Below are positions 6,589 through 44,716 of a stretch of DNA of 64,000 nt, in pieces. The stretch comes from Terriglobales bacterium (GTDB lineage: Bacteria > Acidobacteriota > Terriglobia > Terriglobales > Acidobacteriaceae): the NCBI GenBank assembly GCA_035573675.1, contig DATMAB010000015.1, positions 1 to 64,000 on the forward strand, written 5' to 3'. The first letter of the stretch is position 1. Every line of letters starts with the position of its first letter. The translations under genes and the position numbers were made by a program. Below the pieces are notes generated by a model, which saw only the letters and a program-made list of their open reading frames with translations, was not told where the DNA came from and did no database searches.

Positions 6589-7806
6589 CTAGTAGCTCAC
6601 TTTCCCCAGCACCGCCGCCTGCCTCGCTCCCGTCGCCGCCGGCAGATTGCCCGGCTGGCTCATGCAGGTCTGGTAAGCGAGTACTGCGAAGGCGATGGCT
6701 TCCTTCGCCTCGGCCGGCACGCCGAATTCATCGGAACGTCGCAGGCGCAGGCCCAGGGGCTCTAACTCCTGTGCCAACATCTGCATCAGCGTCCGATTCT
6801 TTGTGCCCCCGCCGGATGCCACAAGTTCACGGAACGCGCCGCGGTGAGGTATTGGTGTCTGTCTCTGAGAATTTAGAACCGAGAACTGAGAACTTCCTCC
6901 AGGCCTCCGTGTCTCAGCGGTCAGCACAAATCGTCGCAGCGCTTGAGCTACGGAGCGCGCCGTCAGCGCCGTCGCCGTGGCCACGATATCATCCTTTTTC
7001 GCGCCGCGGCACAGGCGCAGGAAGTCGCTCACAAACTCGCGCCCGAACTGCTCCCGCCCCGCCGTTTTCGGAGGCCGCTGGCGAAAGAACCGACGCGCCA
7101 GCACCGTCTGGAGCGCGTCCTCGCGGACGCGGCCGCGGGCTGCGACACCGCCACGATGGTCGTACGCCCGGCCGTAGAGCCGCTGCATCACGCCATCGAT
7201 CACCATGCTTCCCGGGCCGGTGTCGAAGGCCACCACGTGCTCAGGTGCTGCCCCGGCCGGAATCGCCGTCAGGTTGGCGATACCGCCGAGATTCTGCACA
7301 ATCCGCCCCACGCGTTGGTCGCGGTACACCAGGTAGTCGAGGAAGGGAACCAGCGGCGCGCCCTGGCCTCCTGCCGCCATGTCTGCCGGGCGGAAGTCTG
7401 AGACCACCGGCGCGCCGACCCGCGCGGCGATCACCGCGCCCTCGCCGGTTTGCCAGGTCGCTGCGATGTCGTGGCCGAGGAAAGGCCTCGGCACGCCCTG
7501 GTGGTAGAGGGTTTGCCCGTGGCATCCCACCAGCTCGACGCGCTGCAATCCGGCGCGCCGCGCAGTTTTCAGCACGGCCTCGGCATAGAGCTCACCCAGC
7601 AGGAAGTTCAGCTGCGCCAGATCGGCTACGGCGGCGGCGCGTGCATTCATGGCTGCAAGCACCGCCCCCCGCACCGCCTGGGGATAGGGATAGCGGGCGT
7701 GCTTCACCAGCGAGAAACGCGTTTTCCACCCGCGTCCGGTCAGGCGCACCAGCGCCACGTCGATCCCGTCCGCCGACGTCCCGCTCATCACGCCCGCAAC
7801 GATCAT
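6589..7806 (-). CDS. anmK: Anhydro-N-acetylmuramic acid kinase
   Basis: 405 aa. It phosphorylates 1,6-anhydro-MurNAc to MurNAc-6-phosphate in the cytoplasm during cell-wall recycling. The N-terminal ATP-binding loop GVMSGTSADGIDVAL (5-19) is diagnostic. SDFRPADMAAGGQGAPLVP (136-154) carries the likely catalytic Asp, NLGGIANLTAIP follows at ~172, and FDTGPGSMVIDG at ~194. It is about 35 residues longer than typical AnmK. The excess lies at ~300-325, where the DNA is a dispersed-repeat word (GAGAACTGAGAAC type, 6866-6893) with a GAGACACGGAGG word beside it. This is an in-frame insertion in a loop. nagZ, which makes its substrate, lies just upstream on the same strand. Confidence 0.93.
   Translation of the reverse strand: MIVAGVMSGTSADGIDVALVRLTGRGWKTRFSLVKHARYPYPQAVRGAVLAAMNARAAAVADLAQLNFLLGELYAEAVLKTARRAGLQRVELVGCHGQTLYHQGVPRPFLGHDIAATWQTGEGAVIAARVGAPVVSDFRPADMAAGGQGAPLVPFLDYLVYRDQRVGRIVQNLGGIANLTAIPAGAAPEHVVAFDTGPGSMVIDGVMQRLYGRAYDHRGGVAARGRVREDALQTVLARRFFRQRPPKTAGREQFGREFVSDFLRLCRGAKKDDIVATATALTARSVAQALRRFVLTAETRRPGGSSQFSVLNSQRQTPIPHRGAFRELVASGGGTKNRTLMQMLAQELEPLGLRLRRSDEFGVPAEAKEAIAFAVLAYQTCMSQPGNLPAATGARQAAVLGKVSY
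6866..6914. repeat. Dispersed words inserted in frame inside anmK
   Basis: The plus strand reads GAGAATTTAGAACCGAGAACTGAGAAC followed by CCTCCGTGTCTC. Both words recur in intergenic spacers elsewhere in the window (19820-19865 and 10558-10593 for the first; 13067, 16818 and 41194 for the second). Here they encode about 15 residues (SSQFSVLNSQ and flanks) absent from the conserved AnmK fold. Confidence 0.6.
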
Positions 7807-9101: not shown

Positions 9102-11864
9102 TTACTCAATCTCCTTCTTTAGCTCGTACAGCAACTTCAGCGCTTCGATAGGCGTAAGCCGGTCGAGTTCCGCCTGCCGCAACCGCTCCACCACTTTGTC
9201 CGAAAGCGGCGTGAAGATAGTGAGCTGCCGCGCCGCCGCGTTCTCGCCTTCGCCGGCGGCGGTCAGGTGGTCGCTCACACGCTGCTCGGCATCCTCATGC
9301 TCAGCGAGGACTTCGCGCGCCCGCGCCACCACCTCTTGCGGCAGCCCGGCCAGCTTGGCGACCTCGATCCCGTAGCTGCGGTCGGCCGCGCCCGCTTCCA
9401 CTTTTCTCAGGAAGACGATCCCGCCCGCGCTCTCTTTCACCGAGACGTGATAGTTCTTCACGCCCGAAAGATGCTCTGCCAGCTCCGTGAGCTCGAAATA
9501 GTGGGTGGCGAACAGCGTCTTGGCGCGGGTGCGGGCGTGCAGGTACTCGACCGCCGCCCAGGCGATGGCCAGCCCGTCGTAGGTCGCCGTCCCGCGCCCG
9601 ATCTCATCCAGCAGCACCAGCGAGCGCGGCGTGGCCGTGTTCAGGATGGCCGCGGTCTCGGTCATTTCGACCATGAAGGTCGAGCGCCCGCGCGCCAGGT
9701 TGTCGCTCGCCCCGATGCGCGTGAAGATGCGGTCCACCACGCTCAGCCGCGCCGACTGCGCCGGCACGAACGACCCCATCTGCGCCAGGATGACGATCAG
9801 CGCCGCCTGCCGCAGGTAGGTGGACTTGCCCCCCATGTTGGGCCCGGTGACGATCACGATCGTCTGCGTCGTCGAGTTGAGGTAAAGATCGTTGGGCACG
9901 AAGCGGTCGGCTGCATCCAGCCGCTCGATCACCGCATGCCGCCCGGCGACGATCTCGATATCGCCGGAGTCATCGAAACGCGGCCGCGTGTAGCCGCGTG
10001 TGGCGGCCACGTGTGCGAAGTTCGCCAGCACGTCCGCCTCGGCCACCGCCAGCGCCGTCTGCCGGATCCGCCGCGCCTCGCCCGCGATGGCCGCGCGCAG
10101 CTCCGCGAAGATGCGCCGCTCGATCTCCACCATCTTCTCCTGCGCGTCCAGGATCCTGGCCTCGTATTCCTTCAGTTCCGGCGTGGTGAAGCGTTCGGCG
10201 TTCACCAGCGTCTGCTTGCGCTCGTATTCGGCGGGCACCAGGTGCAGGTTCGGCTTCGACACCTCGATGTAATAGCCGAAGATGGAATTGAACTTGACCT
10301 TGAGCGAGCCGATGCCCGTCCGCTGCCGCTCGCGCTCCTCGATGCGGGCTACGTGCTGCTTGCTGTTGCGGCTCAGGTCGCGCAGCCCGTCGAGCGCTGC
10401 GTCCACGCCCGCCGCGATCACCCCGCCCTCGGCGAAGGTCAGCGGAGGCTCCGGGACGATGGTCTTCTCGATCCGCTCGCGCACGTCGGCCAGTTCGTCC
10501 ATCTGCTCCCGAAGCGCAGTCAACCGGCCCGGCTCCGCCGTCTCTGCTTTTGACTTTTCGGAGAACTGAGAACCGGGAACCGGGAACTTCTCCAGTGCCC
10601 GCCGCACTCCCGGCAGCTTCCCCAGCGACACGCCCAGCGCCAGCACGTCGCGTGGGTTCGCCGCCTCGAGCGTCACTCGGCTCAGCAATCGCTCAAGATC
10701 GAGGATGCCCTCCATCGCCCTCCGCAGCTCGGCGCGGGCCACCGTCGCTTGCGCCAGCGCTTCCACCGCGTCCAGCCGCCGCGTAATCTCGGTGACATCG
10801 ACCGACGGTCGCAGCATCCACGCCCGCAGCAGCCGCTTGCCCATGGCCGTCACGGTCTCATCGAGGGTCTTCAGCAGGGTGACCTCGTCGCCCGTGCCGG
10901 CGAAGAGTGGCTCCACCAGTTCCAGGTTCCTGACCGTCACCGCGTCCAGCACCAGGTACTCGCGGCGCTCGTAAAACCCGATGCGATCCACGTGCTCGAG
11001 CGTGCCGCGCTGCGTCTGCCGCACGTAGTGCAGCACCGCGCCCGCCGCGGCCGCAGCCGCCGGCCGCCCGGCCAACCCATAGCCTTCGAGCGACAGCACT
11101 CCGAAATGGTTCTCCACCAGCGGAATGGCGTAGTCTGGCGCGAACACCCAGTCGTCCAACGGCGTTTCCGTGAACCGACTTCCCTCCAGACTGTCAGCGA
11201 TTGCGGCGCCGCTTGGTAGCGCCGGCGACTCGCCGCGGGCATCTTGCCCGCGCGCTCCATCTTCCTGATTGCTGATTGCTGAGCGCTGACTGCTTCTTTC
11301 AAACAAGGGCAGGGAAGAAGCGTAGAGCACCTCCCGCGGCCTGAGTTGCGCCAGCTCTTCCGCCACGCGACGCACGGCGTCCGCGCCGCGGAACTCAGTG
11401 GCGCGGAACTCCCCGGTCGAAAGGTCGAGCGCGGCAAAGCCGGCGGCCTCGCCCGTCTGGGCCACCGCCGCCAGGAAATTGTTCTCTCCCGAATCCAGCG
11501 ACGCATCCGCCGCCGTCCCCGGCGTGATCACCCGCGTCACTTCCCGGCGCACCAGCTTCCTGGCCAGCCGCGGGTCTTCCACTTGGTCGCACACCGCGAC
11601 CTTGTATCCCTTGCGGATCAGCCGCGCAATGTACCCCTCCGCGCTGTGATACGGCACGCCGCACATGGGCACCGGCGTGCCGCGCTCCTTGTGCCGGGCG
11701 GTGAGCGTGATCTGCAGCTCGCGCGCGGCGGTGACCGCGTCGTCGTAGAAAAGTTCGTAGAAGTCGCCCAGGCGGAAGAACAACAGCGCCGTCGGATGCT
11801 CCTTCTTGATGGCGGCGTACTGCCGCATCAGCGGAGTCAGCGACGCGCTGCGTGCTTCAGACAT
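9102..11864 (-). CDS. mutS: DNA mismatch repair protein MutS
   Basis: 920 aa. It recognises mismatches as a dimeric clamp and recruits MutL. The mismatch-reading Phe-x-Glu is present (FYELF after RLGDFYE, ~31-37). The lever and clamp regions are normal. The ABC-type ATPase has Walker [10 protein letters not shown] at ~673 and Walker [12 protein letters not shown] at ~750. Two stretches are foreign to the family and coincide with dispersed DNA repeats: ~residues 189-212 (11234-11296) and ~424-436 (10558-10593). They account for much of the excess over the usual ~850-880 aa. The frame is uninterrupted, so the protein is probably functional. Confidence 0.96.
10558..10593. repeat. GAGAACTGAGAACCGGGAACC word inside mutS
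   Basis: The unit GARAACYGRGAAC is repeated about three times. It encodes about 12 residues ([11 protein letters not shown] region) between conserved MutS core segments. It belongs to the same word family as the insertion in anmK (6866-6893). Confidence 0.6.
11234..11296. repeat. Hairpin plus GCTGATTGCTGA word inside mutS
   Basis: A perfect hairpin (CGCGGGCA-tct-TGCCCGCG, 11234-11252) is followed by CTGATTGCTGATTGCTGAGCGCTGACTGC (11267-11295). The second part matches words in spacers at 16761-16799 and 44654-44704. Together they encode a ~25-residue segment ([12 protein letters not shown]...) that interrupts the MutS connector region in frame. Confidence 0.6.
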
Positions 11865-16890: not shown

Positions 16891-16923
16891 ACTGGCCACT
16901 GACCACTGGCCACTGGCCACTGG
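16891..16923. repeat. ACTGGCCACTGACCACTGG word array
   Basis: The unit ACTGRCC is repeated four times between the groEL stop and its terminator hairpin, so it lies in the transcribed 3' UTR. Related copies are at 12031-12064 and 23471-23499. Confidence 0.55.
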
Positions 16924-19819: not shown

Positions 19820-19924
19820 GAACTAAGAACTACGAACTGCGAACTACGAACTAAGAATTACGAACGGCAACCCGCAAGGCGTAAGTCCAGAGCACACGCC
19901 GCACACCGCACACCGCACACCGCA
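19820..19924. repeat. GAACTACGAACTAAG and ACACCGC word arrays
   Basis: 19820-19865 contains GAACTAAGAACTACGAACTG then CGAACTACGAACTAAGAATTACGAAC (unit GAACTRMG, about six copies). 19893-19924 contains CGCACACCGCACACCGCACACC. They fill the gap between two convergent genes. Confidence 0.6.
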
Positions 19925-44543: not shown

Positions 44544-44653
44544 CACTCTGGCGGATGACTGGACGGTGCCCATGTCTGCGGCAGGCCTTTCCGCCAGGCG
44601 TGGGGTGGCTATCGCCTGCGACCGGCTCCCGGCCGCTGCTCGCTGGTGCGCTT

Positions 44654-44704
44654 GCCGAGTGCTGACTGCTGATTGCTTATCGCTAATTGCCTATCGCTTA
44701 TCGC
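44654..44704. repeat. GCTGATTGCTTATCGC word array
   Basis: GTGCTGACTGCTGATTGCTT then ATCGCTAATTGCCTATCGCTTATCGCTC: an eight-to-nine-base unit repeated about five times. Same word family as 11265-11296 (in mutS) and 16761-16799. Confidence 0.55.
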
Positions 44705-44716
44705 TCTATTTTCCCC

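Follow-up and report, generated by a model that had tools for sequence, protein, structure and literature searches.

Several kinds of repeated DNA are known inside protein-coding genes. Rickettsia palindromic elements (RPE), of about 150 bp, are reported to lie in frame inside unrelated metabolic genes (PMC10969869). Intragenic REPs are described as possibly neutral where they fall in linkers or loops, and their hosts include DNA synthesis and repair genes (Di Nocera 2013, PMC3733652; for REPINs, see PMC3116915). The tandem repeats of Borgs, when located in ORFs, keep the reading frame and give disordered segments, their unit length being a multiple of three (PMC9879509). Heptameric repeats have been described as TAACTGA in marine Beggiatoaceae, Cyanobacteria and Bacteroidetes (MacGregor 2015, PMC4679880) and as GGGGACT in Nostoc (PMC4692102). 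Solibacter is reported to carry many short repeats, and the available part of that paper names no element of the kind described below (Challacombe 2011, PMC3174227).

The window analysed here is a stretch of 64,000 nucleotides (contig DATMAB010000015.1) from the draft assembly of a Terriglobales bacterium, designated G000 (3.16 Mb, 28 contigs). It contains the following gene.

Positions 6589 to 7806, minus strand: anmK, encoding an anhydro-N-acetylmuramic acid kinase of 405 aa (ORF; Pfam PF03702, E 1.2e-92; NCBIfam NF007148).

The product belongs to the AnmK family, with 311 bits for PF03702 (cut-off 24) and 483 bits for NF007148 (cut-off 387). The original prediction, made from the sequence alone, stated that it exceeds the usual length by about 35 residues, which fits the three solved AnmK chains of 368-371 residues (constructs). 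Among 109 loci, our own included and with the start taken just before the MSGTS motif, AnmK length ranged from 376 to 416 aa, with a median of 389. The AnmK-bearing relatives named are metagenome-assembled Acidobacteriota, from Terriglobales and their kin. AnmK matches were found in 88 of 100 genomes (our own included), mostly as two pieces breaking at about residues 296-322, and in an alignment of 30 AnmK the excess residues were present in our protein and in none of the other 29. Both results indicate that the insert is not conserved in AnmK, conservation being the finding that would have spoken against the prediction. The excess is specific to the lineage and is located between a long helix and the strand that follows it. 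The sister genome of the same genus (G001) encodes an AnmK that is 81% identical. The stretch from ATALTA to GGG measures 57 aa in our protein; the sister genome has 40, and most other loci 32-38. L056, with 58 aa, is the sole locus longer than 57 among those measured, six loci having been left out. No closer relative with an empty site at the insert was found.

The excess is composed of the following parts, in which E30, a name coined in this analysis, designates the 30-bp element CTGAGAACTGAGAACCGAGAACTGAGAACT, made of four heptamers plus CT.

Positions 6865 to 6894, plus strand: E30 copy, 28 of 30 bases, giving SSQFSVLNSQ (residues 305-314) in the minus-strand frame of the gene.
Positions 6897 to 6920, minus strand: decayed octamer word, (CACRGAGR)x3, with 4 mismatches to the degenerate genome pattern.
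Positions about 6840 to 6864, minus strand: remainder of the excess, delimited by alignment with the sister genome and matching none of the recognised repeat families.

On the plus strand, the E30 copy reads CTGAGAA, TTTAGAA, CCGAGAA and CTGAGAA, followed by CT, and is oriented opposite to the gene. The minus-strand units of the octamer word are CCGCTGAG, ACACGGAG and GCCTGGAG. That the excess is encoded by repeat words inside the anmK ORF, as had been proposed, was borne out by GAACCGAGAACTGAGAAC at 6876-6893 and CCTCCGTGTCTC at 6904-6915. In the window, GAACCGAGAACTGAGAAC had 3 matches at up to three mismatches against 0.03 expected, namely itself and two mutually overlapping ones inside mutS. 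The signal of CCTCCGTGTCTC in the window was weak (3 matches at up to one mismatch against 0.58 expected, equalled in 4 of 100 shuffles); across the genome, (CACRGAGR)3 at up to three mismatches had 43 matches against 16 for the reversed pattern. Both words had also been considered typical of the window's spacers. Heptamer arrays of the same class do occur in these spacers, but the exact heptamer word is absent from them, and the heptamer part of the insert is a near copy of a defined 30-bp element found genome-wide, not of window spacers. With such corrections, the earlier reading of the insert and of its nature is supported: the insert is, at least in part, dispersed repeat sequence translated in frame.

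In the sister AnmK, the octamer word stands at the equivalent place, with 0 mismatches to the pattern, and the loop contains neither E30 nor heptamers. The loop region of G000 is a net 51 bp (17 codons) longer. Since the sister carries the octamer word at the same site without heptamers, this word seems to predate the heptamer part. As the copy in AnmK departs from E30 at two bases, the 30-bp event is not itself observed. When AlphaFold2 was run on 50 aligned AnmK sequences, the mean pLDDT was 88.4, and the sole segment of at least 3 residues below 50 was 304-316, between helix 271-299 and strand 325-331. Modelling, by which the position of the insert was to be judged, thus places it in a predicted disordered linker.

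To follow the heptamer part, CTGAGAACTGAGAACCGAGAACTGAGAACT was searched at up to 3 mismatches in nine genomes, with the reversed pattern as control. Exact E30 copies numbered 11 in G000, 9 in G007, which belongs to another genus, and 1 in the sister genome. There were none in G045, G047 and G051, and G004, G026 and G044 gave zero matches at up to 3 mismatches, as did the reversed control in all nine genomes. The AnmK site is among the matches, with 2 mismatches. Most places of E30 in the genome lie between genes, and the occasional copy inside an enzyme gene leaves that gene unbroken. The 41 E30 places in G000 include 8 (6 sites) that are perfect heptamer arrays without the odd unit, CCGAGAA. 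None of the 41 is an otherwise perfect array with this unit in position 1, 2 or 4, though such arrays lie within the mismatch limit, and each of the four (CYGAGAA)4 arrays in the quarter of the genome that was sampled has its odd unit third. Thirty-two copies read with their flanks had sharp limits and no flank common to the set; these had been selected for being exact or for carrying the odd third unit, and the test proper is the list of all 41 places. In at least six copies (L246, L247, L255, L256, L264 and L275), a TACTGGG-type heptamer array lay just upstream. Neither target duplication nor terminal inverted repeat was seen at E30, the flanks being judged by eye. Viral contigs contained no exact E30, and no match was obtained in plasmids, where the BLAST low-complexity filter may hide one. 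Literature on heptamer, REP, RPE and Borg repeats included no paper on E30 among the matches listed, and searches with E30 stretches and peptides returned none related by title among the matches listed.

As no four-unit array has the odd unit elsewhere with the rest perfect, E30 appears to have spread as one unit, and the shared position of the odd unit suggests that the arrays were not grown independently. The perfect same-unit arrays at 6 sites and the upstream TACTGGG arrays indicate that copying and local growth are mixed in the class.

The length of E30 is a multiple of three, and all three frames of its reverse strand are free of stops. In a perfect heptamer array of 30 bp, each forward frame contains a stop; with CCGAGAA replacing CTGAGAA as third unit, E30 has exactly one open forward frame (LRTENRELRT), and an odd second unit would open a different one. 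AnmK uses the reverse strand, while NrdJ, RecN and GatB use the forward frame. The in-frame copy is exact in NrdJ (G000:C10:205619) and in GatB of G007, where it lies inside the catalytic domain; RecN of G000 has a CCGGGAA variant. The RecN loop with the E30 copy has 29 residues; the sister genome has 31 at this place, and the remaining eight RecN of the alignment, which took in 10 of 14 loci, have 22-29. Since the sister and one further relative have RecN loops at least as long, the copy there is not a clean 30-bp addition.

Heptamer arrays are also translated in a second gene of the window.

Positions 9102 to 11864, minus strand: mutS, second window gene with in-frame heptamer arrays (Pfam MutS domains I-V).
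Positions 10561 to 10587, minus strand: heptamer array in mutS, translated into 10 residues; the sister genome has an array there too, built of another unit.
Positions 11265 to 11289, minus strand: heptamer array in mutS (SQRSAISNQ), compared with the sister genome.

At 11265-11289, TCAG is kept in 3 of 4 units and one free base per unit differs from the sister (by eye); at 10561-10587, every unit has changed. The MutS arrays are shared with the sister genome but absent, by eye, from ten other aligned relatives. In NrdJ, the C-terminal linker has different arrays in G000, G007 and G006 and a decayed one in G012 (by eye), and no period-7 array in G011 or in six sister-family members; NrdJ of G008 (L225) was excluded as frameshifted. 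To judge from these differences among genomes in MutS and NrdJ, arrays appear and turn over in coding linkers.

The class as a whole was sampled in 818,058 bp of G000 (the window plus 40 stretches), using our own simple gene caller. This sample contained 98 approximate period-7 arrays, against 3 in second-order Markov sequence; at equal threshold, other periods gave 2-25 arrays and period 14 gave 68. Sixty-nine arrays were intergenic, 12 lay at gene edges and 17 wholly in called genes, although called genes make up 86.5% of the sample. As in repeats of the STRR and TAACTGA kind, a tandem 7-bp period is thus present above chance and is mostly intergenic. Verification retained 5 of the 17 internal arrays (one in AnmK, two in MutS and two in NrdJ). 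Two arrays in PheT were rejected as an in-frame case, the upstream part aligning separately in relatives, often with stops, and the caller having fused the spacer. Five others were set aside as lying upstream of the likely real start (window:3953, Fpg, PanE, L10 and the L130 protein), and L117:6111 and L147:8141 as GC-rich coding coincidences; the count leaves out three (L117:19179, an AsmA-like protein and ferrochelatase). At L117:6688-9285 (G000:C7), the pheT frame is stop-free through a heptamer spacer into the upstream ORF, which is a separate piece in relatives; this may be a fusion or spacer read-through.

The intergenic arrays of the window include the following.

Positions 16891 to 16923, no strand assigned: intergenic heptamer array, a CTGGCCA/CTGACCA mosaic whose 21-mer recurs at three other sampled sites.
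Positions 19820 to 19864, no strand assigned: intergenic heptamer array of the GAACTAA type.
Positions 44653 to 44705, no strand assigned: intergenic heptamer array in a stretch of about 350 bp absent from the sister genome.

Another stretch with a heptamer array, of about 160 bp (L113:2526-2591), is also missing in the sister genome. Further dispersed words of the sampled intergenic sequence of G000 include AGCGTGGCGCAGACATGGGGCACCGTCG, the commonest 11-mers of which occur in 16 of 500 intergenic pieces, and TCGCTCAGGATGACGGC (13 of 500).

When aligned in phase, the units of G000 share NRCTGRN, with an information content of 4.66 bits where 20 column-permuted nulls reach 3.22 at most; other settings gave 4.51 against 3.15 in 30 nulls, and the sister genome 4.48 against 3.10. 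Four units of RCTGR at period 7 were found 19 times in G000, against 0-1 at seven other spacings tested, and the loci of relatives gave 6 at period 7 and 7 at period 9. Loci L152-L163 were picked for having the pattern, which biases their consensus scores, while the samples of G000 and G001 were not so picked. Four tandem RCTGRNN were present in 70 relatives out of 120; among genomes drawn from the phylum, the figure was 89 of 247, with an uneven spread even within genera. The reversed control of these searches was not clean and exceeded the pattern in some genomes, since ACTGACY arrays match it on the other strand. By inspection, TAACTGA and the Nostoc GGGGACT fit the NRCTGRN core. In G081, G082, G089 and G096, arrays are often paired as the arms of a long hairpin, the RCTGANN arms lying about 40-430 nt apart at L155, L157, L158, L160, L161 and L162 (G089, G081, G082).

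Y1 transposases were considered as the driver of the arrays. Array and Y1 transposase counts were correlated over 100 genomes (rho 0.49, uncorrected for kinship and genome size), yet two clear exceptions speak against this candidate, G044 and G060, which have 78 and 88 array matches and no Y1 transposase match; moreover, 12 of the 52 genomes with at least 3 Y1 have no array match. Two nearly identical tandem Y1_Tnp genes are located at G000:C7:25481-26669 (L243); between them lies the palindrome GGCACGGCTGAAGCCGTGCC as an inverted pair, and further palindromic repeats surround them.

Taken together, these features make it very probable that short dispersed DNA entered a permissive loop in frame and gave AnmK its extra residues, in what were probably two steps. 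The first would have brought a 24-bp octamer word (3 x 8 bp), common to both genomes of the genus, into the loop. In the second, restricted to G000, a reverse-oriented near copy of E30 and about 25 other bases would have been added beside it. Copies of E30 would arise at many genome places; those keeping the frame in flexible loops or linkers would survive as near-neutral, and the remaining ones would be removed unless they lie between genes. The approximately 25 bp of the excess that match no recognised repeat source were counted against this explanation.

Alternatively, the heptamer array could have grown within anmK by polymerase slippage from a chance near-repeat, no copy having come in. 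Such growth has been proposed in print for heptamer repeats (PMC4679880, PMC4692102), and whole-unit changes are seen between the two genomes: the intergenic array at L117:10862 differs by exactly one 7-bp unit, and the E30 copy L251 is one unit shorter in the sister. The second MutS array, which changed its unit throughout, and the perfect same-unit arrays at 6 sites of G000 also agree with slippage. The AnmK copy, however, shares its CCGAGAA unit and both of its ends with the dispersed 30-mer, and the single odd unit was not found at another position with the rest perfect. The occurrence of that 30-mer, exact and with its odd unit, at 11 other sites of G000 and at 9 in another genus speaks strongly against independent growth. 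Slippage alone was therefore dropped for the AnmK array, and we consider it very unlikely.

The position of E30 relative to genes bears on whether the insert was selected for a function, be it antisense, an intragenic translation effect or altered AnmK binding. In a crude test on sites with up to 1 mismatch, an open start codon was present within 12 nt in 12 of 27 cases in the sense direction, against 2 in antisense. Four ATP synthase genes are preceded by E30 or a near variant, at 17 nt from the start codon for alpha, 29 for gamma, 4 for beta and 5 for epsilon.

G000:C17, positions 64113, 65699, 66982 and 68465: ATP synthase E30 copies (loci L252, L258, L261 and L253).

In the sister genome, a variant E30 copy lies 4 nt before the ATP synthase alpha gene (L264). 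Although both the start codons and the four ATP synthase copies favour a selected function, the AnmK copy faces against its gene, is located mid-gene, carries two changes and falls in a predicted disordered segment, and selection of the insert seems even less probable than slippage. Heptamer arrays in co-directional spacers lay within 10 nt of the start in 11 of 59 cases (9.9 expected) and began within 10 nt of the upstream stop in 20 of 59 (9.8 expected); for the 48 longer spacers, the values were 9 near the start (5.6 expected) and 14 near the stop (5.5 expected). Overall, the arrays are hardly nearer starts than expected, but they are nearer stops. A link of E30 to translation is possible. 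E30 might even be a mobile translation-initiation module, a 30-bp heptamer array of core NRCTGRN copied before starts, those of the four ATP synthase genes among them, where it replaces the ordinary ribosome-binding sequence, with stray stop-free 30-bp copies rebuilding enzyme loops; this idea is speculative and rather unlikely. If it were true, the loops of AnmK, NrdJ, RecN and GatB would have been rebuilt from copies of a regulatory element.

The permissive loop assumed in the acquisition of dispersed DNA was also compared among relatives. Dispersed words were searched in 93 of 98 distinct AnmK genes, 5 being skipped because their loop limits were unrecognised, and the dispersal of these words was counted in eight whole genomes (matches in 6, 2 and 7 of the eight). 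Four of the 93 genes contained such words in the loop: L001 (this gene), L002 (G001), L003 (G004) and L056. None was found in the remaining 95% of AnmK gene length, and the reversed-pattern control gave 4 matches (3 for the 15-base word, the other for the octamer word). As the L056 loop served to define the 34-base word, the match there is by construction; the other copies of this word, in 2 of the 8 genomes, are not. A perfect 12-bp hairpin occupies the loop of L035 and lies outside the genome-wide dispersal counts. Across genomes, the same loop thus contains the octamer word, the heptamer array, the palindrome GGCACGGCTAAAGCCGTGCC and two other inverted-repeat sequences. Hairpins with arms of at least 9 bp were not clustered in the loop, with 2 inside and 13 elsewhere (the loop is 5% of the length); a stricter test, for 10-bp arms or tandem arrays, found over 94 genes a single hairpin and a single array, each of them located in the loop.

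The L056 loop, similar in length, would suit a long ancestral loop that was lost in relatives, but none of the aligned relatives, nor the other loci measured, has this sequence, and the long loops of L003, L035 and L056 are built from other sequence, which leaves such a history hardly credible. As to an assembly or binning error that put repeat sequence in the gene, assemblers fail at repeats and the basis here is a draft assembly, but the insert leaves the frame open, the contig measures 384,426 bp and a repeat word is present independently at that residue in the sister genome, so that we give such an error almost no credence.

The acquisition of dispersed DNA in the AnmK loop would represent a traceable birth of protein sequence from non-coding dispersed DNA, in which the source element, its copies and the receiving loop are all readable. 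As one enzyme loop contains different dispersed words per genus, it becomes testable which loops accept random sequence. E30 also provides a small exact handle for seeking the machinery that spreads bacterial heptamer arrays.

Short dispersed DNA in frame is already known from RPE and intragenic REPs; what is new here is a non-palindromic 30-bp heptamer element. As with RPE, E30 or near copies lie in frame in unrelated proteins, namely AnmK, NrdJ and RecN of G000 and GatB of G007. In contrast to RPE, which are palindromic and about 150 bp long, E30 is a 30-bp sequence of direct heptamers, not palindromic by inspection and with no common flank. It resembles intragenic REPs in being a short dispersed sequence inside genes. 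REPs are described as tagged palindromes, the GTAG kind being tied to RAYT transposases (PMC3733652), whereas E30 is by inspection no tagged palindrome and two array-rich genomes have no Y1 transposase match. Like Borg repeats, the sequence is in frame and gives a disordered segment, here a predicted one; unlike them, it has a 7-bp unit and the frame is kept by the total length. The closest likeness in unit is to the TAACTGA repeats, which are reported as heptamer direct repeats, mostly intergenic with some in ORFs and with one stop-free strand, as are the arrays described here (PMC4679880). Those repeats often lie just upstream of start codons, and consist of one exact heptamer whose copies in ORFs are mostly near protein ends (PMC4679880). 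The present system differs in having many related heptamers, together with a fixed 30-bp array that occurs as a unit in internal loops.
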